Source: a virus
Reading direction: 5' to 3' (one strand)
IMG/VR virus record: IMGVR_UViG_3300042889_002944
Location: 1-25,474 of that record
Length of the DNA: 25,474 nucleotides
The notes below the pieces were generated by a model. That model ran no database searches and was not told the DNA's origin. It saw only the letters and a program-made list of their open reading frames with translations. Below are positions 1 through 16,478 of this stretch, piece after piece (the first letter of the stretch is position 1; each line of letters opens with the position of its first letter). Position numbers and translations under genes: made by a program.

Positions 1-12
1 TCTGTTTACTCA

Positions 13-82
13 TGGTGTTGGTTGATTTGAAACGCTTGTTCAAACAGGCGATGTCGGAACATCGCCCGATCAACCAGCACCA
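13..82. repeat. Three-arm inverted-repeat element (possible structured RNA or element end)
   Basis: A closing stem pairs 13-26 with 69-82 over 14 bp, with one position that would be G-U. Inside it sit two hairpins: 27-31 with 39-43 (7-nt loop) and 47-54 with 59-66 (8 bp, 4-nt loop CGGA). The whole forms a compact three-way junction. It is not a tRNA and lacks the integron attC core sites. A run of A follows near 103-111. Function unknown; it could be a non-autonomous element or a small RNA. Confidence 0.5.
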
Positions 83-128
83 GTCGATTTTAACATTTTA
101 ACGAAAAAAAATCCTCTTCCCTACGCCG

Positions 129-196
129 CCTACTTCGCTGAAGCTACGAAGGCCAAGAAGGCTTCCTCCTTCGCTAAAGCTACGGCGGACAAGACG
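129..196. repeat. Two-unit intergenic repeat, 32-bp units, 36-bp period
   Basis: Positions 129-160 and 165-196 are near-identical units sharing cores such as CTTCGCT, AAGCTACG and CAAGA. The unit type resembles dispersed intergenic repeats that I associate with Verrucomicrobiota and related genomes, but this is recalled, not searched. Open reading frames crossing it on either strand are probably chance. Confidence 0.55.
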
Positions 197-266
197 ACAG
201 GCAGGCCGGTCCGACCCATTGGCTCTTTCAGGGGCCTCCCGCAGAAAGCAAATCGCAGCCAGGTTT

Positions 267-395
267 TCAATCCAACGATGCTTCCTCTGTGAGGGCGCGT
301 TTGATTTGGCGGGGCAGTTTGAGGCAGTCGACATCCAACAAAGCTCCGCCGAGCGCATACAGGAGCATGCGATGCGGTCTGACGATGCCGCGCAT
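267..395 (-). CDS. Possible small protein, 42 aa
   Basis: ATG at 395 to TGA at 267-269. The product has a balanced composition, with a hydrophobic stretch (LLYALGGALLDVD) followed by a basic segment (LKLPRQIKRALTEE), unlike the Arg/Ser/Pro-rich shadow frames around it. No ribosome site is seen and no family is recognised. It could be the end of a decayed gene, since the other minus frame upstream of 395 also reads plausibly (residues such as VVVVVENPPEIETVAVGF) before the frame would have to change. Low confidence. Confidence 0.25.
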   Translation of the reverse strand: MRGIVRPHRMLLYALGGALLDVDCLKLPRQIKRALTEEASLD

Positions 396-856
396 GACTA
401 CCCTCGCACCCGGTCAGGAATCCGACGGCTACTGTCTCAATTTCCGGAGGGTTCTCAACTACGACCACCACCTCCCGTGATCCTACTCTGCACAACGCCC
501 GAAGAGCTCGAATGCGTCACATGCTTTCGCTGCGGCACGCAGAAAACACTCCACCTCAAAAGCATTCAGGCCGAAACCCAGCTGTTCCCCCCCGGGATTC
601 GCAAGATTTCGGCCTGATTGAGGTAGGGACCTCTCTAGCGTGCAAGGCAATCTGAAAAGCGGATACCCCCCGGTGTCCGTCCTTCAGGCACAATAAACTC
701 ATTCAATCTCAAACAAAAAGTTGGTGAGAAACCTTCCCGGGCTGTCGATCCCACCCGAACTCCCCCCGGAGCTTGGACTGAGTTGATTTCGACAGTGTCG
801 GTGAAGCTTGTCATCCCTACTCCAATCGCAGTTGAAGTTCTCCATTTCCAAATTTC
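396..856. other. Stretch with no supported gene
   Basis: No reading frame on either strand here has convincing composition, a start context or a partner. Around 396-495 the minus strand may hold the degraded 5' part of the small ORF below 395. The remainder shows no clear promoter, repeat or RNA. Probably eroded accessory DNA. Confidence 0.4.
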
Positions 857-1065
857 ATGAAAAAATTTACATTTAACCCGAATGGAGACTTTTGGAACCC
901 TCTCGTGGAGGCACAGGCAAGCACCTTCTCCAAGATTCGGACTTGATCACCTCACCCAGGGACGAAGCCGCCGCCACCAACCGCGACGTCCAACGCATCG
1001 CCCAAAAGGTTCGTGCCCGATTGCAGGATGCGGAACAGGAAGCCAATCCGAGCGGCAAGCCGTAG
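857..1065 (+). pseudogene. Decayed small gene (frameshifted), about 69 codons
   Basis: ATG at 857 opens a protein-like frame (MKKFTFNPNGDFWNPLVEAQ) that hits TGA after 29 codons near 944. A shifted frame starting within a few bases continues plausibly (ITSPRDEAAATNRDVQRIAQ, then KVRARLQDAEQEANPSGKP) to TAG at 1063-1065. The second half is predicted helical and charged. One single-base indel near 940 would join them. The family is not recognised. Alternatively, the second half is the end of a different gene. Confidence 0.4.
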
Positions 1066-1316
1066 CTGCCTGCTGCCCGTCCCGCCCGCCAAGTCCGCGC
1101 ACGCATCCTGATCCACCGGCTACCGATCTGAACGTGATGGGTGAAGGTAACCGGTGAGCCGGGTTGATGACTTGATCGCGCCTTATGCGAACCAAGTTGA
1201 TGACGTGTTTCAGAGACACCGCTGACATTTGTCTTGGGGCTGCGGGCTATCTTTTTAGTAAATCCCACACCGTTTCCGGCATTCTCCCGAGGGTTGCAAA
1301 AACAAAATCTAACGAA

Positions 1317-1351
1317 TTGTACTGCCCGATTGTCTGCGGTAAAATTTTACC
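1317..1351 (+). promoter_or_regulatory. Promoter overlapped by a perfect 14-bp palindrome
   Basis: TTGTAC (1317-1322), a 17-nt spacer and TAAAAT (1340-1345) form a good sigma70-type promoter about 50 nt before the ATG at 1400. The perfect palindrome GGTAAAATTTTACC (1338-1351) covers the -10 element, the usual position of a repressor operator. Which protein binds it is unknown; the downstream proteins have HTH-like segments. Confidence 0.5.
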
Positions 1352-1399
1352 CACGTCGGCATTCCGCTGACAGGAATCAATAACCGCGCACTCACCACC

Positions 1400-2791
1400 A
1401 TGCCAGCCAACGACACCTCCCATCTTCAAAGCCTGTTCACCCGCTTCGACGTCAAACGCCTCGGCGAAGGCGACACCGCCGCAGGAGCCAACCTCCTCGC
1501 CGCCATGGCCTGCTCTCTCGCGAACATCCAACGCCCGGGCAGCGGCCTCATCACCAGCGACGGGGAGACGATTGCCGTGGGCACCAGCCTCATCGTCTCC
1601 GGCGGGCGCAGCGTCAGCCTGATCTCCGAGAAGGTGCTGGCCGGGCTGGCCACCCGCCAGAACAACTTCGTCTCCCACCTCGGCAAGAAAGTCCAAAGTA
1701 TCGCGGATGAGTCCCAAAAGACCAAACGGTCTGTGAGTGATTCCCTCTCGGAACTGATGAAGAGTATGGACGAGTCGCTCCCTGACAGGCTTTTCCAGCC
1801 ATGGACCTGGCACAACAAACAGGGTGCTGCGGAATCATGGAGCCGGATGGTCGAAACACCGGCTGAACCCACCTTCGAGGACGTTGCCGCGCAGCCCATG
1901 GTGTATGTGACAGGAATCACGGCAGGGACCCTGGGGCCGCAACTGGAGCGCAGCCATTTGGGACGCCCGTTCATGCATGTGGGAGTGGTCAGTGCGAGGG
2001 ACTTCGCAAGCTTCGAACAAATCTGCCCAACCATCATGGACGGTCGGATCACCAGTGGGTCAACGCTGGCAAGCACCCGTGGAACGGTGATGGTGACGGA
2101 TTCATCCGGTGCGCTCTACGAAGCCGTCAAAGCCAACATGCCGCACACACAGTGGTTGTCGCGTCTGCTGTGGCTGGTGGACGGAGATGCGGGACCTGAG
2201 CCGGGTAAACCAGTGGAAGACAAAGCCCTCATTCCGCTCGACCGCCTTGCCGCCCGCTACGAGGCCGCCATGAGAAAGGCTTGGGGGGAGCGCCTCAACA
2301 GCCTGACAACCCCGCCGGAGATGCTGAAATACGATTTCACCGAATCGCAGGCCCGGTGGATGGCTTTCCTCAAAGCGCTGGAGCCGGAATGTCCGGGCAT
2401 CAGCGGCACCGCACGCAACCTTTATGCGACGCTTGGCTTCGGACTATCCCGATTGGTTAGCGCGATGGAAACCACTCCTGTTTTCAAGTGGTGCACTCGT
2501 GATGCTGAGGCGCTTGCCCGGTTCCTCGTCCAGCGCATGGTCAACGCCCGCGCTGCGATGCTCCACTCGGCCGAAGACGACCTCAAACAGCAACAGATGG
2601 AGAAAATCCTCAGCAAGCTCGCAGACGGTCCACTCGAACTCCGCGACCTCGTCCGCAAGTTCCACAGCCTTCCCACCGCGCGGTGTCTTGAGTCGCTGAA
2701 CACTCTTGAAAGCATGGAACGTGTGGCCCTTGTCGATAACAAGTGGCAGCGTGTGGAACCCTCCCGCACCACCGCCGCCCTGTCCAACTGA
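1400..2791 (+). CDS. Uncharacterised 463-aa accessory-element protein
   Basis: The ATG at 1400 is preceded by CTCACCACC, the same Shine-Dalgarno-less leader seen at other starts here. The family is not securely recognised. Residues ~25-60 contain a Gly/Ser-rich stretch (VSGGRSVSLISEKVL) where DUF3987-type element proteins carry a P-loop, but there is no GKS/GKT, so no ATP site can be claimed. Residues ~330-390 are helical (ARNLYATLGFGLSRLVSA). Residues ~400-455 look like a winged helix (LSKLADGPLELRDLVRKFHS). A remote, ATPase-dead relative of DUF3987 proteins is my inference only. It leads a two-gene unit with the frameshifted gene 13 nt downstream and has its own promoter at 1317-1345. Confidence 0.75.
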   Translation: MPANDTSHLQSLFTRFDVKRLGEGDTAAGANLLAAMACSLANIQRPGSGLITSDGETIAVGTSLIVSGGRSVSLISEKVLAGLATRQNNFVSHLGKKVQSIADESQKTKRSVSDSLSELMKSMDESLPDRLFQPWTWHNKQGAAESWSRMVETPAEPTFEDVAAQPMVYVTGITAGTLGPQLERSHLGRPFMHVGVVSARDFASFEQICPTIMDGRITSGSTLASTRGTVMVTDSSGALYEAVKANMPHTQWLSRLLWLVDGDAGPEPGKPVEDKALIPLDRLAARYEAAMRKAWGERLNSLTTPPEMLKYDFTESQARWMAFLKALEPECPGISGTARNLYATLGFGLSRLVSAMETTPVFKWCTRDAEALARFLVQRMVNARAAMLHSAEDDLKQQQMEKILSKLADGPLELRDLVRKFHSLPTARCLESLNTLESMERVALVDNKWQRVEPSRTTAALSN

Positions 2792-2804
2792 CCCCAAGCG
2801 TGAC

Positions 2805-3571
2805 ATGAAGGCAACCCAGCCAGCCAGTGCGCCCACCAGCCGGCCCCAGCCGCTCACGGATTTCCTCAACGCCAACTCGCCCGACCCGGCCACCCGCGCC
2901 ATGGTCGCGACCACGCTGGTGCTCACCTTCTGGCAGATGGGCGGACGGGCGGTCACGCCGCAACTCCCGTCCTTGCTTCTGGTCAATGCCGGGGGCGCAC
3001 AGACCGACCCGCTCGATGCCTTCATCGATCAATGCGGCCTCGGCATGGGGCACAAGGAGCTGCCGAAATCCGGCTCCGGCTCGTATGCCTGCGGCACACC
3101 CGCCAACGCCCCCATGACGATGTTCAATTGCGTCCAGACACGGGAGCAACTCGGCGAGATCACTCCCAACAACCAAGCCCAAATCGTAAGCTTGGAGAAA
3201 CGATTTCATGACGCCCAAGCCACCGGCTTCGGCTGTCACAGCAGCGGCCCTTCCCTTACACCCGCATGTGGAACGATCAAATGGAGTGGATCACCAACGC
3301 GTCCGACCAAATCCTGCTGCGCTTCGACCAGCCCGCCGACCGCGCGGCGTTCCGCAAGGACCTGCTCGACCGCCCCGACAATCTCCTGCGTCCGCGAGGA
3401 GTGAATTCATCACTGCGTATGGCCATCAAAAACATCTCCGTGTCCGGCTCACTGCCACCGGGCGAATGGGACGGCAGCTTGGTTTGCGGCGTGATCGAGT
3501 TGGGCCTGCCGGTGTTCTTCCTGCCGCACGTGGTCAAGGCGCCTCTGATCGTCAGTGACCCGACCGACTGA
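2805..3571 (+). pseudogene. Frameshifted hypothetical gene (~255 codons), partner of the 463-aa gene
   Basis: The ATG at 2805 lies 13 nt after the upstream stop. The first frame reads like protein (TDFLNANSPDPATRAMVATT, LVLTFWQMGGRAVTPQLPSL) up to FHDAQATGFGCHS near 3240. It then degenerates into Ser/Pro/Arg-rich shadow sequence ending at 3404. A second frame, blocked upstream by a TGA near 3210, takes over (RPFPYTRMWNDQMEWITNAS) and runs cleanly to TGA at 3569-3571. The shift must lie between about 3212 and 3245. It could be a true inactivating indel or a sequencing error; no slippery heptamer is obvious. The composition suggests a cytosolic protein. No family recognised. Confidence 0.6.
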
Positions 3572-3814
3572 GGTGGATCGGGTCGCCGCCATCTCCGGCA
3601 AGCTCGGCACCTCGCGAAGGCCAAGACGGCTCAGCGAAGCGTTAAGCAGATAGAAACCCCGGATGCCTTTCATGGGGATGATCTTCCCCTTGTTCACGAA
3701 GTCATGGAACGTGCTCTTCGCCATCGGCGGATCGAAGAAGCGACAGATTATTTCCTGCCGGACGGCGAACTCGGGATAGCCGGTGGGTGGAACCTTGGAT
3801 GAAGGAGAAGCCAT
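3449..3814 (-). CDS. Small helix-turn-helix protein, excisionase/AlpA-like
   Basis: 121 aa from the ATG at 3814; a longer form would need a TTG at 3889. Residues ~18-60 (EIICRFFDPPMAKSTFHDFV, then NKGKIIPMKGIRGFYLLNAS) follow the winged-helix pattern of MerR/excisionase-like proteins that choose a DNA site and a recombination or transcription direction. The last ~40 residues overlap the 3' end of the opposite-strand gene by 123 nt and look like its antisense, so the natural end may once have been shorter. Its place within 300 nt of the tRNA fragment, with direct repeats upstream at 3954-3975, fits an excisionase or regulator of an element flanking the phage. It could also be a plain repressor. 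Confidence 0.6.
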   Translation of the reverse strand: MASPSSKVPPTGYPEFAVRQEIICRFFDPPMAKSTFHDFVNKGKIIPMKGIRGFYLLNASLSRLGLREVPSLPEMAATRSTSVGRVTDDQRRLDHVRQEEHRQAQLDHAANQAAVPFARWQ

Positions 3815-3953
3815 GGCGGAACTGTCCGTATTCCCGGCCGGGGTGGCACGGATATTTTTTTCGCTTCCAAGGGAGGCAAGCAGCGCCAAACGCCAATCTC
3901 TCGGATGGACGGAATCAGAGCCAGCAAGTAGAGATCATTAAGACGCCTTAAAT

Positions 3954-3975
3954 AGTTGCCCAATCAGTTGCCCAA
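3954..3975. repeat. Paired 10-bp direct repeat, 12-bp period
   Basis: AGTTGCCCAA occurs at 3954-3963 and again at 3966-3975. It lies upstream of the excisionase-like gene and ~115 bp from the tRNA remnant. Short phased repeats next to an attachment site are typical of accessory-protein or integrase arm binding sites; that role is inferred. Confidence 0.5.
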
Positions 3976-4087
3976 ATCGCAACTTTTTTTCGGAATTCGA
4001 CGGACTCTGGCGGACGCGCACGGAGAGACGTAAAACAAGGACTCATTCATAAACCACTTAAATACAGCCAACTTAGCGACTTTAAGC

Positions 4088-4134
4088 TGGAGCCGGCTAT
4101 CAGAGTCGAACTGATGACCTACTGATTACAAATC
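4088..4134 (-). other. 3' half of tRNA-Thr(TGT), probable attachment site (att)
   Basis: Read on the minus strand, 4134 to 4088 matches the end of a bacterial tRNA-Thr: anticodon loop TTTGTAA with anticodon TGT, 3' anticodon strand, variable loop, T arm with GTTCGACTC, the acceptor strand GCCGGCT and an encoded CCA. The match stops abruptly inside the 5' anticodon stem. The next ~30 nt upstream (rightward) show no D arm or 5' acceptor strand, so no complete tRNA can form. This 47-nt remnant is what a tyrosine integrase using a tRNA 3' end leaves at the distal junction. The polarity puts the element at coordinates above 4134. Confidence 0.8.
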
Positions 4135-4226
4135 GTCTAGCGGGCCGGTCTTGGAGTGCAAGTGGTTGACAGCGAGTGACAATCTTCACGCTGGGGCGCG
4201 GTAAATTGACCCGTGATGGGGGTCCG

Positions 4227-4249
4227 GGTGGGCATTGCGGTGGGCATTG
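4227..4249. repeat. Paired 11-bp direct repeat, 12-bp period
   Basis: GGTGGGCATTG is present at 4227-4237 and 4239-4249, ~55 nt before the regulator start codon. The 12-bp period is close to one helical turn, which suits an operator for the adjacent HTH protein or an integrase arm site near the att remnant. Function inferred. Confidence 0.45.
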
Positions 4250-4266
4250 GGAGGGGCGAAAAAGAG

Positions 4267-4283
4267 CTTGCGCTTTCGCCAAT
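4267..4283 (+). promoter_or_regulatory. 17-bp phage regulatory motif, copy 1
   Basis: CTTGCGCTTTCGCCAAT ends 19 nt before the ATG at 4303. An identical 17-mer is at 22993-23009, 22 nt before the helicase ATG, and its 11-bp core is inverted at 14650-14660. The motif is an imperfect palindrome (TTGCGC/CGCCAA halves). It is probably an operator or promoter element of the early genes. Confidence 0.55.
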
Positions 4284-4302
4284 ACAGAGCAAACGATGGG
4301 GC

Positions 4303-4746
4303 ATGAGCACGAAGCGGCAGAAGATGGTCGGGACACGTTTCATGGCGGAGCTCCGCAATGTGATCTCGGATGATTTCGATGGCAATATGTCAGAGCTTTC
4401 CCGCCAGAGCAAGGTGCCGTCCGGGACGCTGGGGCATTATCTGTCGACCCACCGCTATCCGCGGGTGGATGTGCTGGACCGGATGCTGCGCTGCCTGGGC
4501 AAGGAGTCGAAAGCCCGCTTGTTGGAGGCGTATCTATTGGACCTGACGCCACCGTCCGCCCGCGGGCAGGTGGTGGTGCGGGGCTCGCAGGACCCGGCGC
4601 TGGAAACCCAGCGGCTGAACGAGGACCTGGGCTTCGATAGGAAGCTGGGGGAGTGTCTGGAGTGGATGGGCAGGCTGGCGATGGAGAACCACGCGATCCG
4701 GCTGATGGTGACCCAGACGGCGAAGGCGTTGGGGTGGAAGGGTTAG
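4303..4746 (+). CDS. Phage HTH transcriptional regulator, 147 aa
   Basis: The ATG at 4303 is chosen over upstream GTG/ATG codons at 4213-4218, because the earlier residues are Gly/Arg-rich and the shared regulatory motif (4267-4283) would lie inside the gene. Residues ~28-52 (NMSELSRQSKVPSGTLGHYL) form a Cro/CI-like helix-turn-helix, with MSELSRQS as the first helix and SGTLGHYL as the recognition helix. The C-terminal ~90 residues are helical and may dimerise; there is no LexA-type Ser/Lys protease domain. It is the only plus-strand gene at the left end of the phage and faces the late block across a shared hairpin. A role as repressor or early/late switch is inferred. Confidence 0.65.
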   Translation: MSTKRQKMVGTRFMAELRNVISDDFDGNMSELSRQSKVPSGTLGHYLSTHRYPRVDVLDRMLRCLGKESKARLLEAYLLDLTPPSARGQVVVRGSQDPALETQRLNEDLGFDRKLGECLEWMGRLAMENHAIRLMVTQTAKALGWKG

Positions 4747-4752
4747 TTCGGA

Positions 4753-4785
4753 GCCACCGCCACCACCACTTGAGGTGGCGGCGGC
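4753..4785. terminator. Hairpin between convergent genes (bidirectional terminator candidate)
   Basis: CCGCCACC (4757-4764) pairs with GGTGGCGG (4774-4781) around a 9-nt loop. GCC (4753-4755) and GGC (4783-4785) extend the stem after one mismatch. It fills the 50-nt gap between the regulator stop and the stop of the minus-strand block. No T tract follows on either strand, so it may need a factor or only protect the 3' ends. Confidence 0.5.
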
Positions 4786-4796
4786 CGGGGAGCCGA

Positions 4797-5387
4797 TCAC
4801 TCGTCGATCACTTCAACGCCGGTTGGCGCGGTGGTGATGGTCACGCTGTAATAGCGGGTGATGTTGCCGGTCGAGTCATCCACGCTCGAATTGCGGGTGA
4901 TGCTCAGACGGGACGGGCGGTCGTCGGTGGCGAGGCTCGTGTAGCGCCAGTAGAGCATCTCCATGATGCCGAAGACCATCTTGCGCCAGTCGCCCGTGGA
5001 GGACGCGGTGGCCTCGGTGTCGGTGACCTCGTCCAGCGGACCCATGACTTGGCAGGTGTTGTTCGATGTGCCGCTGACGGCGATGGCGAGAGTGCCACCA
5101 CCCCGCGTGGCGGAGAGCGTCACCGTGGTGGTGGTCGGGACGGTCTTGACGTAGTAGTCAGTCGCGGCAGCGAGTCCGGTTGGCAGGGTGGTCACCTGAG
5201 TGAAGCGCACCCGGTCCCCAATGATGAGGTCGTGGGCGGCGGCGAACAGCACTGTGTCGGCGACCGCGCACGAGACGGTGGTCCCGGTGGTCAAACCAGC
5301 ATAGGTGTTGGTTTTTAACCGGACCTCGTTGGAGGCGATTGCGTAGGTTTTGCCAAAGAAGGCAAGCGGGGATTTGGTATAGGCCAT
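4797..5387 (-). CDS. Virion-associated beta-rich protein, 196 aa
   Basis: Last gene of the late block. Residues ~40-105 contain a segment of the kind common in phage particle proteins (IIGDRVRFTQVTTLPTGLAA, then TDYYVKT and TTTVTLSATRGGG), in which a position-in-space beta module is followed by a Gly-rich strand. The remainder is mixed, with an aromatic motif (MVFGIMEMLYWRYTS) and a beta-rich end. No catalytic motif is seen. Position after the capsid and head-completion genes and the absence of a signal peptide suggest an internal or decoration/tail component. The start is ATG in the context ACGACC-ATG, the same as the major capsid gene. Confidence 0.6.
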   Translation of the reverse strand: MAYTKSPLAFFGKTYAIASNEVRLKTNTYAGLTTGTTVSCAVADTVLFAAAHDLIIGDRVRFTQVTTLPTGLAAATDYYVKTVPTTTTVTLSATRGGGTLAIAVSGTSNNTCQVMGPLDEVTDTEATASSTGDWRKMVFGIMEMLYWRYTSLATDDRPSRLSITRNSSVDDSTGNITRYYSVTITTAPTGVEVIDE

Positions 5388-5399
5388 GGTCGTATGTGG

Positions 5400-5591
5400 T
5401 TATTGGTTTGGTTTGGTGGAGAGTGAGAATGTAGCATTGAGCGCAGCCCGGCGCTTGGCGCAGCCGCCACAATGCTCGATGCCGGTCCCGGCGAAGCGGT
5501 CGATAACGCGGGCGACGGGTTGCGCGACGAGCGCGACCACATCGCCAAGACCCCTCAGCCGTGGACGGGATGTGCGCTTGGGGATGTCCAT
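5400..5591 (-). CDS. Small Cys-containing phage protein, 63 aa
   Basis: ATG at 5591 lies one base after the upstream TGA (TGA-C-ATG), so the two genes are translationally coupled. The protein has a hydrophobic helix (LGDVVALVAQPVARVIDRF) and a compact Cys motif (GIEHCGGCAKRRAALN), C-x-x-C with a basic helix after it, which may bind zinc or a metal. I have seen similar short proteins with a xxC-x-GC-xxRR pattern in phage late regions, but no function is known. The frame upstream of 5591 is shadow of the neighbouring gene and was excluded. Confidence 0.6.
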   Translation of the reverse strand: MDIPKRTSRPRLRGLGDVVALVAQPVARVIDRFAGTGIEHCGGCAKRRAALNATFSLSTKPNQ

Positions 5592-5592
5592 G

Positions 5593-5982
5593 TCAGTAGT
5601 CGGTGGCGATGACGATGAAGGTGAGGTCGTTGGCGAGCGTCGTCTTGGCCCGCGCACGGATCGACCAGCCAAGCTCCAGATTAATGAGCGCATTGTAAAT
5701 GCAGGCCAACCCAAGAACGTCAAAGGCGACGGTGGTGCCAAGGTTGCCTGCCGAGGCGGGGACGACTACCGTGGTGAGGATGAAGTCAGACGACCCGTTG
5801 TAGAGCAGGATCTCCACCGTGGCGGAAACCGTGTGCGCGTTGCGGATGGTGAACTGGTTGATCACGCTGTCGTTCGCCCCTGCGGCGATGATGAGTTTGG
5901 GAACAGTGGTGTCAGCGGCAGTGAGGTTCACTGCCGCGATGTTGAATCCTGTCGGTTTGTAGTCGTTGGTTTGCTTGGCCAT
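5593..5982 (-). CDS. Small beta-rich virion protein, 129 aa
   Basis: Begins at ATG 5982 with the leader TAAACCACCACC and no Shine-Dalgarno. The sequence alternates Val/Thr/Ile strands (KPTGFNIAAVNLTAADTTVP, TIRNAHTVSATVEILLYNGS), typical of a jelly-roll or Ig-like fold such as a capsid decoration or head-fibre protein. It has no signal peptide, Cys pair or enzyme motif. It sits between the 520-aa protein and the coupled 63-aa Cys protein. Assignment to the particle rests on fold-like composition and operon position only. Confidence 0.55.
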   Translation of the reverse strand: MAKQTNDYKPTGFNIAAVNLTAADTTVPKLIIAAGANDSVINQFTIRNAHTVSATVEILLYNGSSDFILTTVVVPASAGNLGTTVAFDVLGLACIYNALINLELGWSIRARAKTTLANDLTFIVIATDY

Positions 5983-5991
5983 GGTGGTGGT

Positions 5992-7554
5992 TTAGTTGCC
6001 GGGGTTGCCGGGGTTGCCGGGGTTGCCTGCATTGACAGCAGGGGATTCGAGGTCAAGTTCGACCTGCTCTCCAGTGAGTTGAGGCTTCTGACCGAACTTA
6101 GAAGATCGGTAGCATTCGTAGCGGACGTTCACGATTCTTTTGTCGCCGGGAGCGTCGGGCGGTTCTAGGTAGTAAAAGTCTGAAAGCCAGCTCTCGTCTT
6201 CGGAGTCTTCGGGGTTGCCGGGGCCGGTCCACTTGACCTCGTTGTCCTGCGAGTCATAAAAGCGAGGGCGAGCCACCCATTCAGGGTGATCTTCAAGGTA
6301 TGCGGCCCACGCTATCACTGCTTCGTCGTAAACGACAACATCGGCGAGGTATGAGTCGTGAGCGGCGAGGTATGAGTCGTAAGCGTCAGACGCTGCCAGC
6401 CATGCGTTGTAGGCGGGGTTGGTGATTTCTTCTGACGGCTCATCCTCGGGATAAGGCGGCGCATCGGCAGGCGGGTCCCACGCGTTAGCCCACGCTTCGG
6501 CAGCATTTTCCCATACGACATGTGCAGGGTTGGTGATGAGCTCTACTGGCTCCGCACCGGGATCTGACACCGTGTCAGGCCGGACAGGTGGGACAGGTGG
6601 GTTTATATCCCACCCATCCGGCTCCTCGATGATGTCGTAGATGATCTTGAAGTAGCTGCCAAGATGGGTGCTTGGGATCTTCCAGCGGTAACGGACCTTT
6701 GAGGCGTAAGCGGCGGTCAAGAAGTCCCCGTAACCGGCGATAGGTCTCACGGTCTGCGCATAGCTTGATTCGCAAACATTGCTGCGGTAGGCCCCGGAGC
6801 CCGGACAAGCCCCTTCAAACAGATTCTCAGCCGCAATGGCAGCCATGGCTGCTGTCTTTGCGGCTTTTAAAGGGATACGGTCATCGAACTCCCTGGGAAT
6901 CGCGCCTTCAACAAAAGATGTCGAGAGGCCGGGGACGGTGGTTGCGACAGTGGTGGTGGATCCAAAAACGAGGGGCTCCACGTCTTCTATCGTGCTCGCA
7001 ATAGTGGTTGTTGTCAGGCTCCAGACATTAGCGACTGCTGTAACCGAGTCTGTGATGTCGCTATCCGTATGGGTGAATTTATTGCTGGGAGCCCCATCAA
7101 CAGGGTTGGCGTAGCCACCGGTTCCGACGTAAGAACGGGTGTAAGTTCCCTCGCGAGTGACGGTTGTTGTTTGCTCAGGGTAGGCCGCGCACCCATACGT
7201 CCTAATAGCGGGTTGTATTTTACTGGTTTCCGTTCGGGTGTCCGTCCTTGACTCGGATTGATAGACAAACAACGGCCCTGTGACCGTTGAAACAAGAATG
7301 TTACCGCTTCCGTCCAGCCTATAAAGAGTGTATGAGGTGTCCGAGTATGTAATCGGCCCGGCTGGACCTCGATTGCTGAACGCCTTCCGAGTCGAATGCG
7401 GTATCCCTGCAGCGTCGTAGTAAGGAGACCCGACGTTAGTGGACACGCTCAAACTCACACACGTCATCGAAGGAGCGGCACACCCCGGCATCTCGCAACA
7501 CCCGCACATGCGGTTGTTCCAGTCCTCCAAGGTTTTGATGAGGGCGGCGGGCAT
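5992..7554 (-). CDS. 520-aa virion-block protein with Cys-rich N-terminus and NPG tail
   Basis: The ATG at 7554 follows the upstream TAA by 3 nt. Residues ~16-32 are Cys-rich (MCGCCEMPGCAAPSMTC), a possible metal site. The middle is Thr/Ser beta-rich. Residues ~330-440 carry loose repeats of the form ITNPAxxxWxxAxxAxxxxxxA (NPAHVVWENAAEAWANAWDP; NPAYNAWLAASDAYDSYLAA), i.e. acidic, aromatic helices. The protein ends in AGNPGNPGNPGNPGN, coded by a 9-bp tandem repeat at 5995-6027. Unrecognised. The internal repeats and low-complexity tail suit a stalk or interior/ejection protein, but nothing proves this. Confidence 0.6.
   Translation of the reverse strand: MPAALIKTLEDWNNRMCGCCEMPGCAAPSMTCVSLSVSTNVGSPYYDAAGIPHSTRKAFSNRGPAGPITYSDTSYTLYRLDGSGNILVSTVTGPLFVYQSESRTDTRTETSKIQPAIRTYGCAAYPEQTTTVTREGTYTRSYVGTGGYANPVDGAPSNKFTHTDSDITDSVTAVANVWSLTTTTIASTIEDVEPLVFGSTTTVATTVPGLSTSFVEGAIPREFDDRIPLKAAKTAAMAAIAAENLFEGACPGSGAYRSNVCESSYAQTVRPIAGYGDFLTAAYASKVRYRWKIPSTHLGSYFKIIYDIIEEPDGWDINPPVPPVRPDTVSDPGAEPVELITNPAHVVWENAAEAWANAWDPPADAPPYPEDEPSEEITNPAYNAWLAASDAYDSYLAAHDSYLADVVVYDEAVIAWAAYLEDHPEWVARPRFYDSQDNEVKWTGPGNPEDSEDESWLSDFYYLEPPDAPGDKRIVNVRYECYRSSKFGQKPQLTGEQVELDLESPAVNAGNPGNPGNPGN
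5995..6027 (-). repeat. 9-bp tandem repeat coding an Asn-Pro-Gly tail
   Basis: GTTGCCGGG (plus strand) is repeated 3.7 times and codes the C-terminal NPG repeats of the 520-aa protein right up to its stop. Copy number could vary by slippage without changing the frame. Confidence 0.7.
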
Positions 7555-7557
7555 GGC

Positions 7558-8235
7558 TTATCCTCGGCTGATGGTGAATCCGCTGAAACAAAAGCCGATG
7601 CCGTAGTTTCCCGGCAGGTTGGGCGAAAAAGAATTCTCCCCGAAAACCCCGAGCGACGTCTTGAAGGTGCCACTGAGCGAATCCACCGTGGGGAGCGTCG
7701 GATCTCCCACGTCACTGGCGACCGCGAGTGATCCAGCGGACATATTGAACTGCGGCAAGAGCACGTCGTCGGCCGCTTCGGCAGTGCCGGTCACGGTCAA
7801 GACGAGGTGTTGGCCCGCCGTTCCCGCCCAGTCCGGATCATTATCTCCCACGGGCGCGGCCATAAGCTCAAAAGGGACGATGGTTTCGCTACCATCTCCC
7901 GCCCAAACATACCCGCCTTTCAGCATGAGGTTACCGTCCGGGTCTGTGTAGCGGGTGTAGAAATTTCCTTCAATGCCGCCGCCGCCGCTTACCGGGTCCG
8001 GAGTGAGGGTGATCTTGAGCTCGGTCTTGTTGCGGCGGGGCGGCTCCGGGGTTGCGTAGGCCCCGATCTTGGCAGGGACATAGTTACTGCCTTGGCCGGG
8101 GCCGAAGAAAGAGTTGGGGTTGACTGGACCGGTGTTCCACGGATCGCGGGTAATCGGCGTGCCCCTGCTCCCGGTCCCTCTGCCCGCGCCAGCGGTAGCC
8201 GCATCGTTCACCGTGCCTGTATCCTTGAGTCCCAT
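7558..8235 (-). CDS. 225-aa virion-block protein, unknown
   Basis: The start ATG (8235) overlaps the stop of the 720-aa gene by one base (TGATG), so the two are coupled. The N-terminus (~70 aa) is Gly/Pro/Asn-rich and probably disordered or a linker (GTVNDAATAGAGRGTGSRGT). The rest is beta-rich (LKITLTPDPVSGGGGIEGNF, TAGQHLVLTVTG). It resembles a baseplate-like or tail-knob accessory protein by composition only. No enzyme motif, membrane segment or signal peptide. It most likely works with the large repeat protein encoded immediately upstream. Confidence 0.55.
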   Translation of the reverse strand: MGLKDTGTVNDAATAGAGRGTGSRGTPITRDPWNTGPVNPNSFFGPGQGSNYVPAKIGAYATPEPPRRNKTELKITLTPDPVSGGGGIEGNFYTRYTDPDGNLMLKGGYVWAGDGSETIVPFELMAAPVGDNDPDWAGTAGQHLVLTVTGTAEAADDVLLPQFNMSAGSLAVASDVGDPTLPTVDSLSGTFKTSLGVFGENSFSPNLPGNYGIGFCFSGFTISRG

Positions 8236-10397
8236 CAGTCCGTGTATTTGACTTGGATTTCCTTGACCAGATAGCCGTCCTCAAACGGGTCGATCTGGAT
8301 CGCATAGTTCTGCCATCCTGTGGGTATCCTTGTAGGTTCGGTGGCGGTGAAGTGTGTGAAAGACGTAGAAAGCTTTTGGAGCGAAACGTAGTCCGGGTCG
8401 TTGGTCCCGATTGTGTCGACAAGGTTGACCTGTTCGTGCAGGGTCTCGCCGATGGACACCTGAAACTGGATGCCGTCGTAGTCGACGCGCTTGGTCTTGA
8501 AGACCAGCGGCTTGAAGTTTTCCGCCGCAGCGGGGTCTTTGGTGAAATACTCCGTGATCTTGGCCGGGAACAGACCGCTGTAACCTTCCTCGATGTCGGC
8601 CCGGATGCAGATCTTGTCGCGGACGGGGCCTTCGCTGTTCGGCTTGCGCTTGATCTTCTCTATGAGAAGCTGTTTAAGCCGGCTCGGCGTCTGCGCGTTG
8701 ATCACCGAGTAGTAAATCTTCCTGCCTTTAGGCTCAATAGTCCGCACCGTTTTCTCAAACACCCTTTCCGTTCCTTGGGCAAACACCAGCCGGGTTTGGG
8801 AATTGGGTTCGCTGGCTTCCGAACTGGTGGAAAAACTGGTGGTTTCGGTAACCGTGTAAGTAGGGGTGGTTTTTTTCGCCGACTGGAAAGCTCCTGCAAG
8901 CGGCCTGACTTGGGGGGTCTCGTTGAGATAGACGCTGCCACCCGGACCGGAATACACTTGGCGGCTTTTTCCGTTCGAGCCTGCGTTGGCGCTTTTCGAA
9001 TAAGTCCCATTCCACGCGATCGAGCCCCACGAGTTGGCGTCAGTTTCCTCAGTGCCACCTTCAGGTTGAAGTGTGGCTGTCTCATTGAGGTAGACGGAAT
9101 CCACGCCGTTGGACCACACCTGCCTCGACTTGTCGCCGCTGGTGCTTTTGGCGTAGGTGCCTTTCCACGTGAGTTTGCCCCATGCGTTGGCGTCGATGTC
9201 TGTAGTGGACCCGGAGGTGGTGACGCTGGGGGTGGATGCTTCGTAGATTTTGACACTTCCGCCGTCATAGACCAGCTGCACGGAGCCGCCGGAGGGCGCG
9301 TTGTCGCTTGTGGTGTAGTTGGTGGTGGTTTTCAGGGACCCCCACTGCTGGGCGTCGGTCTCAACCCCCTTGAGCCCGGTCTTCGCGGTGGCGGTAACCT
9401 CACTGACCTCGTAAACCCGCACGCTGCCGTCGTTGAAGACCACGTTCGAACTGCCCGTGGCGGTGGCCACCTCCGGGCTGGTGCTGTATTTCTTGTTGGA
9501 GGTCAGTCGGACAAACGGCTTCTCATCCTTTTCCGTTCCGGCAGGGCCGGGGCGGGCGGTGGCGACCTCCGCCACGTTCTCATAAATCTTGGTGTCCCCG
9601 TTCTCATAGACGAGCCGTGACGAGGCGTTGCCCGTGGCTGCCAGCGAGATGGATGACCCCGGAGTCATCGTGCTCTTGATGCTCACGAACGGCTTGCGCT
9701 CCACCGACTCGTCCACCGAGGAGGTGTTGAGGGCGAGTGTTTGCTCTGTGACGGTTTTCCGATATTGGTCGTCGTTGAGCTTCTGGTGGACGATTTTGGT
9801 TTGATTGCCGCTGAGATATGCCGTATCCGGGATGTCGTTGACATTGGCGGACGGCAACGTCTCCGTGGTAGCGGTTTCGTTTGAAATGCTTTGCCTGCGG
9901 TATCTTTGCGGCGGAGGGTTTTCGGAGCCAATGGCTTTGACCTGCTGTTGCGGGTAGCCGTCCTCAAAGGTGCCGTCGGTTTTTTTGCGGCGGGGTTTTT
10001 TGGTTCGCTTGAGGGACTTGGCCTCGTCGATGGGCTGGTAGGAGGAGAGGGTGTCGGCCTCGATGGCGGATTGGGTGGGGGTGGGGACGACTTGCTGGGA
10101 GTAGAGGTGCTCGCCGAGGCCGTCCTGGCGGTCGCCGCTGCCGAGGAGTGTCGTCCAGGCCGGGGCGGAGCAGTGGGAGACGCTGAGGATGCGCTTGCCG
10201 TCCTTGGGTTGGATGGAGGCGTCGAGGACGACGTGGGCGGCGAACTGCGGGCCGAGGATGTTTCCGAGCACGCTGCCGCGGGCGGGTGGCTCGGTCTCGG
10301 CGGCGACCTCGCGCTGGGAGGTGTAGGTGCGCGGCATCCCCAGGAGTCCCGGCTCCTGGAGGGTGGTGATGGGGCGGAATGCTTCGGAGGAGGCCAT
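8235..10397 (-). CDS. 720-aa repeat-containing virion protein
   Basis: The ATG at 10397 is 6 nt after the upstream stop. Residues 1-130 are a globular N-domain (VLGNILGPQFAAHVVLDASI) with a following basic patch (LKRTKKPRRKKTDG, ~129-142). Residues ~233-559 hold six divergent repeats of ~50-58 aa. The shared pattern is D-A-x-x-W-G-x-L, an x-x-x-x-Y-x-x-S strand, then V-Y-x-x-G-S-V-x-x-Y-E/L-N-E (e.g. VYDGGSVKIYE, VWSNGVDSVYLNE, VYSGPGGSVYLNE). Residues ~560-720 are a separate C-domain (FEDGYLVKEIQVKYTD end). Such arrays usually form elongated beta structures in fibres or stalks. No known family is recognised. Position after the head-completion gene suggests a tail, hub or stalk component. Confidence 0.6.
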   Translation of the reverse strand: MASSEAFRPITTLQEPGLLGMPRTYTSQREVAAETEPPARGSVLGNILGPQFAAHVVLDASIQPKDGKRILSVSHCSAPAWTTLLGSGDRQDGLGEHLYSQQVVPTPTQSAIEADTLSSYQPIDEAKSLKRTKKPRRKKTDGTFEDGYPQQQVKAIGSENPPPQRYRRQSISNETATTETLPSANVNDIPDTAYLSGNQTKIVHQKLNDDQYRKTVTEQTLALNTSSVDESVERKPFVSIKSTMTPGSSISLAATGNASSRLVYENGDTKIYENVAEVATARPGPAGTEKDEKPFVRLTSNKKYSTSPEVATATGSSNVVFNDGSVRVYEVSEVTATAKTGLKGVETDAQQWGSLKTTTNYTTSDNAPSGGSVQLVYDGGSVKIYEASTPSVTTSGSTTDIDANAWGKLTWKGTYAKSTSGDKSRQVWSNGVDSVYLNETATLQPEGGTEETDANSWGSIAWNGTYSKSANAGSNGKSRQVYSGPGGSVYLNETPQVRPLAGAFQSAKKTTPTYTVTETTSFSTSSEASEPNSQTRLVFAQGTERVFEKTVRTIEPKGRKIYYSVINAQTPSRLKQLLIEKIKRKPNSEGPVRDKICIRADIEEGYSGLFPAKITEYFTKDPAAAENFKPLVFKTKRVDYDGIQFQVSIGETLHEQVNLVDTIGTNDPDYVSLQKLSTSFTHFTATEPTRIPTGWQNYAIQIDPFEDGYLVKEIQVKYTD

Positions 10398-10403
10398 GGC
10401 GGC

Positions 10404-11351
10404 TTAGTAGGCCGACCGCAGGCGGGTGCCGGGGGCGGACTGAGGGTTGAGGGTGCGGAGCATGGTGACGGCCTGGGTGTAGGCGTCCTCGATGGCTTGG
10501 CGGGCGGAGTCGTTGCGAAAGAAGGGCGAGCGGGTGAGGTGCTTTTCGGCGACGGGGACGAGGATGCTCTCGGCGTAGCCGTGGGGGATGGGCAGGTCGC
10601 TGCCGGGGTTGTCGTCGAGGCTGAAGATGGGCACGGCGTAGCGGACGCGGGCTTCCAGCAGGCAGGCGCCGGCCGGGGCGGGGAAGATCCGCAGGCGGAA
10701 GGCGGGCATGCTGTAGGGCGTGTGCTGGTGGCTGTCGACACAGTATCTCATCGGGGTGCCGGTGGTGGTGCCGACCTGTGGCAGCACGGGGAGGCGGGTG
10801 ACGCGGTCCTGCATGCCGTAGTCCTCCCAGCTCTCCACGGAGTAGCCGGGCAGGTGGGTGACGGAGGGGACCGGGGCGAGCATGGAGGCGCCCTTGATGC
10901 AGACCGGGGAGAGGACCTCGCCGATCTCGTGGGGGAGAGTGAGGCTGTCGTGGTAGAGGGTGACGGTGGCGCTGCCGGTGGCGCCGTCGTGCGGGAGTTC
11001 GAGGGTGACCTCGTTGGTATCGGGGTCGATGCCGCGGATGCGGTTTTCCGCGCTGGAGCCGGAGACGCGGCAGGCGCAGCCTTCGAACCAGTCCAGCCAG
11101 GCACCGCCGAAGCCGATGACGGTGCTGCCGTAGGTGACGGTGGCGGCGGCGGTGGCGGGCGCGTGCAGGATGAAGCCGTGGGTGCCTCTGCGTGCCCACG
11201 GGGCGTGGTTGGAGAAGAGGAACTGCATGGCCGCGTTGATGGCGGCGATGGCGGCCTCGGTGCGGCCGGGGTAGTCGGCGCCGTCGAGCAGTCCGCGCTC
11301 CTCGGGCGAGAAGTGGGTCTGGAGCCGGGTGATGAGGTCGCCGAGGTTCAT
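10404..11351 (-). CDS. Head-to-tail adaptor/completion-like protein, 315 aa
   Basis: ATG 11351 in the leader CCACCACC-ATG. The N-terminus (MNLGDLITRLQTHF, then EAAIAAINAAMQFLFSNHAP) is a helical start much like podovirus connector/adaptor proteins, which begin with a helix that docks on the portal ring. It is followed by a beta domain (GFILHAPATAAATVTYGSTV) and a helical C-terminus (ARQAIEDAYTQAVTMLRTLN). Length and position, two genes after the major capsid protein, fit the P22 gp4-like/tubular-tail A role. No catalytic motif. The assignment is by layout and secondary structure, not by a named signature. Confidence 0.5.
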   Translation of the reverse strand: MNLGDLITRLQTHFSPEERGLLDGADYPGRTEAAIAAINAAMQFLFSNHAPWARRGTHGFILHAPATAAATVTYGSTVIGFGGAWLDWFEGCACRVSGSSAENRIRGIDPDTNEVTLELPHDGATGSATVTLYHDSLTLPHEIGEVLSPVCIKGASMLAPVPSVTHLPGYSVESWEDYGMQDRVTRLPVLPQVGTTTGTPMRYCVDSHQHTPYSMPAFRLRIFPAPAGACLLEARVRYAVPIFSLDDNPGSDLPIPHGYAESILVPVAEKHLTRSPFFRNDSARQAIEDAYTQAVTMLRTLNPQSAPGTRLRSAY

Positions 11352-11363
11352 GGTGGTGGGGAG

Positions 11364-11756
11364 TTATCCCGCCAGCACGGCCATGGCGGCGTCTTCGGCG
11401 GATTTCTTGTGGGCAGGGGCGGCTTTGGCCTTGGGCAGCGGTTTGGGGGCTGCGGGGGGCGCGGACTTGGAAATGGGGAGGACCAGAGTGACGAGCGTGT
11501 AGCTGTGGGCGGCGGAGGTCATCAGGTCGCGGGCCATGGCGGCGTTGTCGGCCATCCAGACAGATTCCGGCACGGTGAGGGCATGGCAGGAGGCTGCCGG
11601 GTCGTGCTCGAAGATGTAGCGCACGTTGCGCTTGCCTGGCACTGGCACCGGGCGGTGGTTGTAGCAGCCGGAGAGCTCGACGCGGATGTTGCGGGCTTCA
11701 TCGGACTTGCGCTGGGATTCCAGCCATTCGCGGGTGACGAGGTTCGGGTAGTTCAT
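11364..11756 (-). CDS. 130-aa late protein, unknown
   Basis: The ATG at 11756 is chosen because the upstream extension is shadow of the capsid gene. The protein starts MNYPNLVTREWLESQRKSDE, has an Arg/His-rich central part (GCYNHRPVPVPGKRNVRYIF), a hydrophobic strand (SYTLVTLVLPI), and an Ala/Lys/Pro-rich tail (APKPLPKAKAAPAHKKSAED) that looks disordered and basic, possibly contacting DNA or a capsid. It lies 12 nt before the adaptor-like gene and after the structured gap that follows the capsid gene. No family recognised. Confidence 0.55.
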   Translation of the reverse strand: MNYPNLVTREWLESQRKSDEARNIRVELSGCYNHRPVPVPGKRNVRYIFEHDPAASCHALTVPESVWMADNAAMARDLMTSAAHSYTLVTLVLPISKSAPPAAPKPLPKAKAAPAHKKSAEDAAMAVLAG

Positions 11757-11808
11757 GAAGGTAAAAGCTGAGACGCTGAAAATCTGAGATGCTGAAAGGA
11801 AAGGGGGC

Positions 11809-11862
11809 GGGCCGGTCAAAGACACCATGAAGAAGACCGACCCGCCCCGCAGTCCGGGGCGG
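11809..11862 (-). terminator. Double hairpin after the major capsid gene (attenuator/partial terminator)
   Basis: Directly after the capsid stop, 8-bp arms at 11842-11849 and 11855-11862 (CCGCCCCG/CGGGGCGG) close a 5-nt loop. A second, overlapping 9-bp pairing joins 11809-11817 with 11835-11843, perfect on the minus-strand RNA if one G-U pair is counted. The two share 11842-11843, so they could be alternative folds. No long U tract. Such structures commonly stabilise or attenuate transcripts so that capsid protein is made in excess. Confidence 0.55.
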
Positions 11863-11869
11863 CAGGCGA

Positions 11870-13426
11870 TTACGCCAAGCTGGGCACCGGATAACCTTCG
11901 TGATCGCAAGCGAACTCGAGGAGCAGGTAGCCGTTGGTCACGCCGTTGGTGTTGATGGTGGGCGCTTGGCCATACACCATTTCGTAACCCCTGCCCTTGA
12001 TGAAGGAGTAGTCGTCCTCCTGTTCGATTCCGTTCATCTGGACCGAGCCGTAGGCGCGGCAAGCCGCGTGGGCGCCGAAGATGAAGCCGTAGCCGATGGG
12101 GACACCTTTGCTGTTGGCAGGGATAATCACCGCACCGACGTCCACCCTGTCGACCAGCACATAGCTGGCGATGTCGGAAGGAAGGGTTGGGCTTGTTCCG
12201 GCGGTGAGGACGCGAGTGGTTGCATTGACTGATGCCGATCCGCCGATAACAAGACCACCGACCGTCGTCGCGCCTTGGCCTGAAGTTCCGGCAGCGGACG
12301 ACAAGACCTTGCTGAGAGTGATCTGGTTGCCAGCGACTCCGGTGAAGCCTGTGGTTCCGGCATAGGCAAGGAACGCGATGGAGCCATCCGGGTTGATCGC
12401 CCATGCGTAGGCTTCGGTGGTGTTGGATGGCAGCTTGTCGTCTTCCGTGAACTCATACCGGAAACCGGGGAAGAACTGGAAGTAGAGGCTGGTGGTGGTG
12501 GTGGACGATCCCTTGAGGACGCAGGAGCCGGATGCGCCGCCGGCATTGAATCCAACAGCGTTGACCGCTTTGGGTTGGATCGGCGAACCGACATAGTCAT
12601 CCCAGTCCTGGTCGGTGACGATGTGCTCGTAGAAGTTCTGGCCCTGCCAGGTGACGAGCTTGCCGGAGAACAGTGGGTTTTCGCCACCGCGGGCGCCGCC
12701 GTCACGGACGGCGTTCTGGTAGCCGCTGTCGTTGCGGATATCGAGGAACGCGTATTCCGAGGCGAAGGTGAGGAAGCCGTTGATGTGGTCGCCGTTGGTT
12801 CCCATGGTATGGGAGATCGGCTTGGCACCGAGGGTGTTCAGGCGGGCCTTGGCGGTGGAGGCGAGGGTCAGCGAGAGCGTGTCCGTCTTGGAGAGGGCGT
12901 TGCGACTGGTCTTGCCGTTCGGGCGGTAGGTGTTGCCGGATCCGCGGTGGATCAGACCCATCATCATGTCGTTCTGTTTCCAGATGCCCATCTTGAGCTT
13001 GAGCAGCTCGGCGGTGGTTTCCTCGAGGACGTTGCCGGTGGCCATGAAGGCGATTTGCTTCTTGGTGAAGGCGACGGCATCACGGTGCCAGTCAACGGTG
13101 ACCGAGTAGGTCTTGAACTTGGAATGGGATTCCGCGCCCTTGAGGGAGCGTTCACCGATGGCGCCAGGACCGCCGGGGGCGGAGATGACGGTGAAGTGGA
13201 CCTTGTCACCGCCCTGGGCCTTGAGGTCGCGGCGGCGGCAGAAGATGCCGCTCTTGCCAGCGTTGGCGAGGGGGATGCGGGGTTGTTCCGACTCGAAGGC
13301 GGAGAAGGCGTCATAAGCCTTGGAGCCGATCTCGAGATAGCGAGCCCAGAGTTGGGCCTTCACGTTGGCGTCCATTGCGGTCGCCTCGGAGAGGGTCTGG
13401 AAGTTGAGTGCAGTTGCGTTAGCCAT
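11870..13426 (-). CDS. Major capsid protein, N4-gp56/DUF4043-like, 518 aa
   Basis: Forms the icosahedral head shell. Residues ~70-165 follow the N4-gp56-type core: a GGDKVHFTVISAPGGPG strand, GAESHSKFKTYSVTVDWHRD, then a long helix pair (KKQIAFMATGNVLEETTAEL, LKLKMGIWKQNDMMMGLIHR). ENPLFSGKLVTWQGQNFYEH (249-268) matches the NPLFTGxLGxYNG-type motif of this family. FGAHAACRAYG (450-460) and the acidic GIEQEDDYSF region match its C-terminal part. Residues ~295-430 are a Ser/Thr/Gly-rich insertion (SSTTTTSLYFQFF, ATTVGGLVIGGSASVNATTR), possibly a surface domain. It is preceded by the scaffold-like gene, the canonical order. Start context ACGACC-ATG without Shine-Dalgarno. Confidence 0.82.
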   Translation of the reverse strand: MANATALNFQTLSEATAMDANVKAQLWARYLEIGSKAYDAFSAFESEQPRIPLANAGKSGIFCRRRDLKAQGGDKVHFTVISAPGGPGAIGERSLKGAESHSKFKTYSVTVDWHRDAVAFTKKQIAFMATGNVLEETTAELLKLKMGIWKQNDMMMGLIHRGSGNTYRPNGKTSRNALSKTDTLSLTLASTAKARLNTLGAKPISHTMGTNGDHINGFLTFASEYAFLDIRNDSGYQNAVRDGGARGGENPLFSGKLVTWQGQNFYEHIVTDQDWDDYVGSPIQPKAVNAVGFNAGGASGSCVLKGSSTTTTSLYFQFFPGFRYEFTEDDKLPSNTTEAYAWAINPDGSIAFLAYAGTTGFTGVAGNQITLSKVLSSAAGTSGQGATTVGGLVIGGSASVNATTRVLTAGTSPTLPSDIASYVLVDRVDVGAVIIPANSKGVPIGYGFIFGAHAACRAYGSVQMNGIEQEDDYSFIKGRGYEMVYGQAPTINTNGVTNGYLLLEFACDHEGYPVPSLA

Positions 13427-13481
13427 GGTCGTAGGTAGTTAGTGTGTGGTGTGCGGTGTTGCAGGGGTTGGCGGAAACGGT

Positions 13482-14588
13482 CTATGCGGCCCCGAAAAGG
13501 GCGGCGCGGATGGTTTCCTCATTGGATGTCTCGATGAGCCTTTGGATGTTGTCCGGTGACGGCCGCACGGCGCTCTGGGAACCGGGAGCGCCGGACCCGA
13601 TGGGTCTGGCATTCTGGCGTGGGGCGGGTGCGGGGGTGCCTGTTGGCTTGGCGGCTGGCGGCGCGATCTCCTGCGCGACTCTTGAGGCTAGGGCCTTGAG
13701 TTGGGCGGGGTGATTGCGGATGGGTCCGTAGGCTTGCTCGTAGGACTCGACTTCCTGCGTGAGGCGGTAGCTGAAGAAGCTCCTGGGGTCTTCCGATTCC
13801 GGGTGGTCCACGTAGATGTCCTCGATGGCGGCACTGAGGGCCTGGGCTTGGACGGTGGTTTCCCTGGAGCGGAGGGCCGCGTGAGACTTCGCTTCCGACA
13901 GTGCGGCGACGGCGTCTTCGATTTGGCTGGTGAGTTCGAGTTCGGTGGGCCGGTCGAATTCCTCCACGGCGGCCTTGCGCTGGGCGCGGAGGTCGGCGAG
14001 TTGGGTTGCTAGGGCGGCTACATCGGCGTCTGGCTCGGTTACGGGTGCTGGCTGCCTGGCGGGCGTGGCGGCTGGAGGGGTGTCGTCTGCGGGTTGCTGG
14101 GCTTGCGGGCTTGGTTCTGACATGCCGTCCCCTTGAGTGAGGATTCTGATGGCATCTGCCAGACGGGGCGCTTTTCCTTCGCGCACCAGGTCCTTGGCTT
14201 GGGCAACGAGCAGGCGGTCGTCCGGGTGCAGGGATCTCAGGGAGATCCTGTCCAGTGCTGACGCTTGCTGGGGCGGTGCGGGCGGGGTGTCCTGGTCCCC
14301 GGCGGCGTCCAGCGGCTGTTCGCCTGCGGGGTCGTCTGCGGTGGGCTCGGGATCGGCCTGCGGATATGGGGTGTCACCGGACGCTGGGCCGGCTGGCTCG
14401 GCGTCGGCTGGAGAAGCGGGTTCCCTGCCGAAGAGCAGGTTTCCGATTTCCGTGGCGTTGGTCATCGCATCGATGGAGGCGGTGACGTCGGCGGGTTCCT
14501 GCCGTTGGGGCTGTTCGCCTCCTGCGGGCACTGTCTGGGTCTGAGGTTGCGGTTGTGCACCTGCAACGGGTGGGTCCATGACTGGCAT
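13482..14588 (-). CDS. Scaffold-like assembly protein, 368 aa
   Basis: Directly upstream of the capsid gene, the usual scaffold position. The sequence is Pro/Ala/Gln/Asp-rich and largely disordered for ~190 residues (PQPQTQTVPAGGEQPQRQEP), with a helical segment at ~110-150 (LDRISLRSLHPDDRLLVAQA). A charged coiled coil follows at ~190-250 (ALATQLADLRAQRKAAVEEF), then a C-terminal part ending in a helix (NIQRLIETSNEETIRAALFG). This matches scaffolds, which dimerise by coiled coil and bind the capsid through the C-terminus. The start is ATG 14588; ATG 14579 is an in-frame alternative. The upstream gap holds two phage regulatory motifs, so this gene likely begins its own transcript. Confidence 0.65.
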   Translation of the reverse strand: MPVMDPPVAGAQPQPQTQTVPAGGEQPQRQEPADVTASIDAMTNATEIGNLLFGREPASPADAEPAGPASGDTPYPQADPEPTADDPAGEQPLDAAGDQDTPPAPPQQASALDRISLRSLHPDDRLLVAQAKDLVREGKAPRLADAIRILTQGDGMSEPSPQAQQPADDTPPAATPARQPAPVTEPDADVAALATQLADLRAQRKAAVEEFDRPTELELTSQIEDAVAALSEAKSHAALRSRETTVQAQALSAAIEDIYVDHPESEDPRSFFSYRLTQEVESYEQAYGPIRNHPAQLKALASRVAQEIAPPAAKPTGTPAPAPRQNARPIGSGAPGSQSAVRPSPDNIQRLIETSNEETIRAALFGAA

Positions 14589-14619
14589 GGACGAGAGAGT
14601 AGAAGAGAAAAACGGGCGC

Positions 14620-14660: not shown

Positions 14661-14670
14661 TGGGAGGTTT

Positions 14671-15258: not shown

Positions 15259-15268
15259 GGTGTCTTAT

Positions 15269-15364: not shown

Positions 15365-15382
15365 GTCGTAGTTCGAGGACAC

Positions 15383-15681: not shown

Positions 15682-15686
15682 AATGA

Positions 15687-15986: not shown

Positions 15987-16010
15987 GGGTGGGGGGGGTG
16001 GTAGGTGTGG

Positions 16011-16478
<468 letters not shown>

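Follow-up and report, generated by a model that had tools for sequence, protein, structure and literature searches.

A tRNA-Thr 3' fragment as the probable junction of an integrated Akkermansiaceae temperate phage and an older integrative element

We analysed a virus record of 25,474 bases, the whole of which is referred to here as the window, and propose that the 47 nt at 4088-4134 are a tRNA-Thr(TGT) 3' fragment lying at the repressor-side end of an integrated Akkermansiaceae temperate phage, in tandem with an older, decayed integrative element. We put the probability of this reading at roughly 0.82. As at a prophage end, the tRNA fragment has phage DNA on one side and non-phage DNA beyond it, and the features of the window on both sides are as follows.

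1400-2791, plus strand: first protein of a two-gene module, 463 aa
2805-3559, plus strand: second protein of the module, cut short near residue 250 of 459, with a frame break between 3233 and 3257
3575-3814, minus strand: xis-like gene, truncated, with 80 of ~160 residues left
3955-3976, minus strand: two direct repeats TTGGGCAAC at 12-bp spacing, on the element side, in a layout that recurs 3' of intact tRNAs in many relatives
4088-4134, minus strand: tRNA-Thr(TGT) 3' part, 47 nt including CCA, the probable core or displaced fragment at the phage-element junction
4227-4249, minus strand: two direct repeats AATGCCCACC at 12-bp spacing, on the phage side ~112-115 nt from the core, presumed integrase arm sites
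4303-4746, plus strand: repressor-like gene, nearest to the core
4797-22932, minus strand: phage late gene block, including tail-fibre-like proteins
11870-13426, minus strand: major head protein, in the late block
20851-22932, minus strand: portal protein, in the late block
23074-24627, plus strand: phage DNA helicase (phrog_62), start approximate

On the minus strand, positions 4088-4134 begin in the anticodon stem, take in the TGT anticodon and the T arm, and end with CCA; they are letter-identical to the tRNA-Thr(TGT) 3' end of Akkermansiaceae genomes, a match that is far beyond chance. An exact search of genome_contigs with this 47-nt core returned nine loci, found only in Verrucomicrobia assemblies, and at eight of these ARAGORN called a complete tRNA-Thr(tgt) whose 3' end is the match; the remaining locus, L003, is likewise a tRNA remnant. 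When the window was aligned with the exact-core loci, identity extended across all 47 nt and similarity was lost immediately 5' of them, the 5' half being absent, and in the window and L003 remnants identity begins at one common base, a G in the anticodon stem. With up to three mismatches allowed, the core had one match each in 13 of 260 genomes of the bacterial family, and a reversed control pattern at the same tolerance had none in the same 260. The core bases were matched at 85-89% in proteobacterial records, a plasmid search of window positions 1-4200 gave the tRNA stretch as its sole match, and no exact 47-nt copy was present in viral_contigs, with the window's own record holding one copy. 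ARAGORN called no tRNA at 4088-4134 and Rfam found nothing in window 1-6000 at E ≤ 1, as expected because this is half a gene. Elsewhere in the window, ARAGORN reported a 90-nt tRNA-Thr(ggt) at 921-1010, which is probably false, as Rfam finds no tRNA there (E ≤ 1). In L003, positions 578-1977 form an integrase-end remnant carrying the identical tRNA-Thr core.

On the phage side of the fragment, above 4134, the gene nearest to the core is a putative repressor on the strength of a weak PHROG match. The portal protein had a relative in one 5.5-kb contig at 89%, a match in 4 of 260 genomes of the bacterial family, and only three weak matches (23-24%) among 50,697 phage records; relatives of the major head protein were found in two contigs, at 65% and 82%, and the same 50,697 records gave no match to it. 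Two repetitive stretches were also observed here, namely an in-register array of GGCTCA/GGCTCT hexamers in the minus-strand late gene region (15991-16161), and repeats of 9-bp period within a collagen-like tail fibre gene (20175-20390). The original prediction, made from the letters of the window, had described the 47 nt as the 3' half of tRNA-Thr(TGT) with CCA and without a 5' half, and had placed an integrated element above 4134; the first of these claims is confirmed by the exact match and the alignment, and the second is borne out by the late genes, major head protein and portal found there. We detected no integrase in window 1-4088 using Pfam, PHROGs on the larger ORFs, and tblastn with two integrases, and the lack of an integrase left of the core argues for an integrated end rather than attP.

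A related phage, IMG/VR contig 3300043773_001994 (L038/L039; L038 is 31,196 bases), provides the comparison. L038 carries, in order, a repressor-like gene, a tRNA 3' half, a tyrosine integrase, SSB, a DnaB helicase and the terminase large subunit, and with phage genes on both flanks of the attachment site, its tRNA-half locus is attP. We take this tRNA half to be from tRNA-Lys, based on an anticodon read as CTT rather than on a comparison of genes. The integrase gene starts ~40-115 bp past the core, and a TGCCCACC repeat pair lies on the repressor side at a distance of 112 nt from the core, with a second pair on the integrase side. Exact phased 7-mers were present in 16 of 100 stretches of 250 bp, and since they are this common we placed weight on the shared position and sequence of the repeats. 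L038 and the window are alike in the major head protein (81-82% identity), the repressor-like gene (77-80%), the position of the core and the phased repeats; however, L038 has an integrase adjoining its tRNA 3' half and the window does not. A viral_contigs scan with the L038 integrase returned its own contig and no other.

Integrated relatives were found in two genomes. The G172 prophage encodes portal, head, terminase and DnaB relatives and is bounded by a 38-nt direct repeat (499.4 kb) and tRNA-Leu(taa) (562.7 kb). Its integrase, of the L038 type, lies 115 nt from the intact tRNA, and the tRNA fragment is at the opposite end. This prophage resembles the window phage in its portal (42%) and head protein (43%), and L038 in its terminase and DnaB relatives, but differs from the window in lying at tRNA-Leu(taa) and in that the duplicated part is the tRNA 5' half (38 nt). 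G090 has portal, head and terminase relatives bracketed by tRNA repeats: on one side, at 71.5 kb, is a 75-nt repeat including the tRNA-Leu 3' part, and on the other, at 129.9 kb, the intact gene. Here, the fragment end carries an integrase, whereas the integrase of the L038 type is broken, with a fragment of it inside the prophage. Integrase placement is therefore not universal, and the ORF listing and PHROGs rule out G090 as an exact copy of the window layout. The repressor-like gene of the phage side was not found in the searched stretches of G090 and G172.

The L038-type integrase itself had a match in 38 of 260 genomes, and at 26 of the 30 loci fetched an intact tRNA lies 60-223 bp from the start of the match, with the integrase in sense orientation to the tRNA in 7 of the 26 and antisense in 19. 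The antisense integrases (among L120-L149) are mostly at tRNA-Met. Antisense placement suggests frequent duplication of the tRNA 5' half, which is verified for G172 only (38 nt). At one locus, in G128 (L121), an L038-type integrase is positioned directly 3' of an intact tRNA-Thr(TGT) in sense orientation, which is the type of junction predicted beyond the right edge of the window.

Below 4088, the window resembles the end of an integrative element. Using a 74-residue query, the xis-like protein was matched in 29 of 260 genomes, and 21 of 30 loci fetched have an intact tRNA upstream on the same strand, 178-328 bp before the start of the gene, with the isotypes Pro, Ala, Thr, Lys, Arg and Met represented. 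At two further loci (L076 and L079) the printed sequence has a tRNA 3' half alone upstream, and the remaining seven lack both a tRNA and a fragment at that place, in two cases because the contig ends. Many loci have a TTGGCAAC-like repeat pair, 12 bp apart, between the tRNA and the xis-like gene. In L058, L060 and L100 it is tRNA-Thr(tgt) that is followed by the xis-like gene, and when the window was aligned with five loci, three of them at tRNA-Thr(tgt), a conserved block was seen to run from the repeats into the xis-like gene.

The far ends of these elements could be located in several genomes. The last 52 nt of the tRNA 3' region recur in G172:C12 (element of ~65 kb) and the last 35 nt in G109 (~41 kb), each copy with a tyrosine integrase adjoining, and these repeats comprise the tRNA 3' part and one or two bases beyond. 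Likewise, the ~68-kb element of G103:C36 has a 49-nt tRNA-Pro repeat beside an integrase, which was found only beyond the 60 kb searched first; xis loci of G092, G089 and G102 had no distal tRNA repeat within 60-100 kb downstream. The element integrase matched in seven of 20 genomes searched (G172, G103, G090, G148, G159 and G109, and weakly in G008). Given the distal tRNA repeats and integrases in G172, G109 and G103, the xis/repeat layout marks one end of a genuine integrative-element type of ~40-68 kb with its integrase at the far end. The left side of the window has phased TTGGCAAC repeats and an xis-like gene 3' of a tRNA in common with these three elements, but its copy is truncated and stands behind a tRNA fragment rather than an intact tRNA.

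The xis-like protein had no clear Pfam or PDB match, its best hit among curated excisionase/HTH models was HTH_17 (E 0.13, for 1 of 15 members), the only hit of a PDB profile search with the xis alignment was a ribosomal protein at chance level, and a viral_contigs scan with the same alignment found no relatives. It is a putative excisionase, a role suggested by its position only. The cargo downstream of the xis-like gene seems by eye to be varied, with what we take to be an abortive-infection-like pair in L095, an IS transposase in L089 and a nuclease-like ORF in L086.

The two-gene module at window 1400-3571 is ~460 + 460 aa in relatives. Its first protein occurs in 18 of 260 genomes and lies 1.7-3.2 kb from the element integrase in G090:C11, G103:C15 and G103:C36. 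A viral_contigs scan with this protein found no relative, the module received no Pfam assignment, and NCBIfam gave no match to the module, to the xis-like gene or to the integrase of L003; window 1-1400 had no match among the compared loci by tblastx or tblastn. In the window the xis-like gene ends at 3575 and its convergent module neighbour at 3559, and an intact xis-like gene (~160 residues) is absent, showing that this copy has decayed. A deletion that fused the two convergent truncated genes (3559/3575), and so brought the xis-like gene beside the module, would explain this arrangement. Such a deletion would place the resident integrase just left of position 1, and from the spacing in three relatives we expect this integrase and a further tRNA 3' fragment immediately beyond the left edge.

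The left side could in principle be plain host DNA downstream of tRNA-Thr, without a second element. A plain flank is possible at such a fragment, since in L003 it is followed by a gene that we take, by eye, to be a host glycogen synthase. However, the repeats and xis-like gene of the window's left side also occur beside five other tRNA isotypes, and the left module adjoins an integrase in three such elements, which makes this explanation hardly credible. The original prediction had allowed for either host DNA or a second, tandem element on the left; the repeats and xis-like gene match element ends, which favours the second element, in decayed form, and disfavours plain host DNA.

The same genes bear on whether the window might instead be attP of a circularly permuted free phage, in which the integrase arm had been replaced by the xis-like gene and the module as cargo. 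Arm-like phased repeats do flank the core on both sides, as at the L038 attP, but the left-hand repeats have the sequence type of the genome-borne elements and not that of the phage. Furthermore, no integrase was found in window 1-4088, the genes there are truncated and frame-broken, and both the xis family and the module first protein gave no relatives in viral_contigs but are present in bacterial genomes at the frequencies given above. We consider a free phage very improbable.

Junctions resembling that of the window were seen elsewhere. In L079, upstream of 1498, the integrase end of an element of the resident type is followed by a tRNA 3' half and the xis-like gene, making this an independent tandem junction of the same kind, without a phage. 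Upstream of 1426 in L076, a tRNA 3' half without a 5' half stands directly before the xis-like gene, also a tandem-type junction. These loci are relevant to a further alternative, that the window is an assembly chimera in which a free phage attP was joined through the shared 47 nt to a host tRNA-Thr with its xis element. The shared stretch is a possible misjoin point, and the window is a virus record for which the source reads are not given. However, usual read and k-mer lengths exceed 47 nt, real integration yields an identical join, and fragment junctions of this kind exist in independent genomes (L003, L076 and L079); a chimera is, in our view, unlikely.

In the integrated tandem that we favour, the integrative element would have settled at tRNA-Thr first and decayed, and the phage would have integrated in the same gene afterwards. 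A phage tyrosine integrase, presumably of the L038 type, would recombine an attP core spanning the anticodon stem-loop to CCA with the same 47 bases of the chromosomal gene, a mechanism that is in itself textbook. The phage copy of the core would then complete tRNA-Thr at the integrase end and the original 3' part would be displaced to the repressor end, so that an intact tRNA-Thr and the phage integrase are predicted past 25474, where the record ends. The DNA below 4088, with its 12-bp-phased repeats and xis-like gene, would be the tRNA-proximal end of the older element, which occupies this same gene. Had the phage come first and the element then taken the fragment as its site, the same window would result, but this order is probably the less likely of the two because the element is the decayed partner.

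Islander (PMC4383910) counts 3,919 islands in tRNA and tmRNA genes: 3,760 have 3' and 159 have 5' fragments, 2,083 of the islands are anticodon-centred, and there are 125 tandems of two or more. As described there, islands and prophages of this class share with the window a tRNA fragment running from the anticodon region to the end of the gene, an intact gene expected opposite, and a tyrosine integrase; in the window, by contrast, the intact gene is outside the record and both neighbours of the fragment are element ends, in tandem. On these counts of tRNA islands and tandems, the junction in the window is ordinary in kind. In the literature searched, which covered titles and abstract openings and so leaves absence unproved, no title concerned tRNA-borne elements of Akkermansiaceae, and neither the phage lineage nor the xis/int element type was met in titles. 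The novelty appears to be modest and to lie in the two element lineages, both apparently little described, tandem tRNA occupancy being already known.

For Akkermansiaceae, the results tie a little-known lineage of temperate phages, at one of its ends, to a named site in the chromosome, and both missing ends of the tandem now carry exact predictions. They also show that phages and this type of integrative element occupy tRNA sites of the family in tandem. The short signature of tRNA 3' end, TTGGCAAC pair and xis-like gene makes the elements easily found in draft genomes. More broadly, we regard it as an evenly balanced proposition that Akkermansiaceae carry undescribed elements of ~40-68 kb whose recombination genes are divided between the two ends, the intact tRNA having the xis-like gene with phased arm sites beside it and the displaced fragment having the integrase, and which share tRNA sites in tandem with an undescribed phage lineage, alongside an integrase lineage that mostly (19/26) lies antisense at the tRNA 5' end and, in one checked case, duplicates the 5' half.
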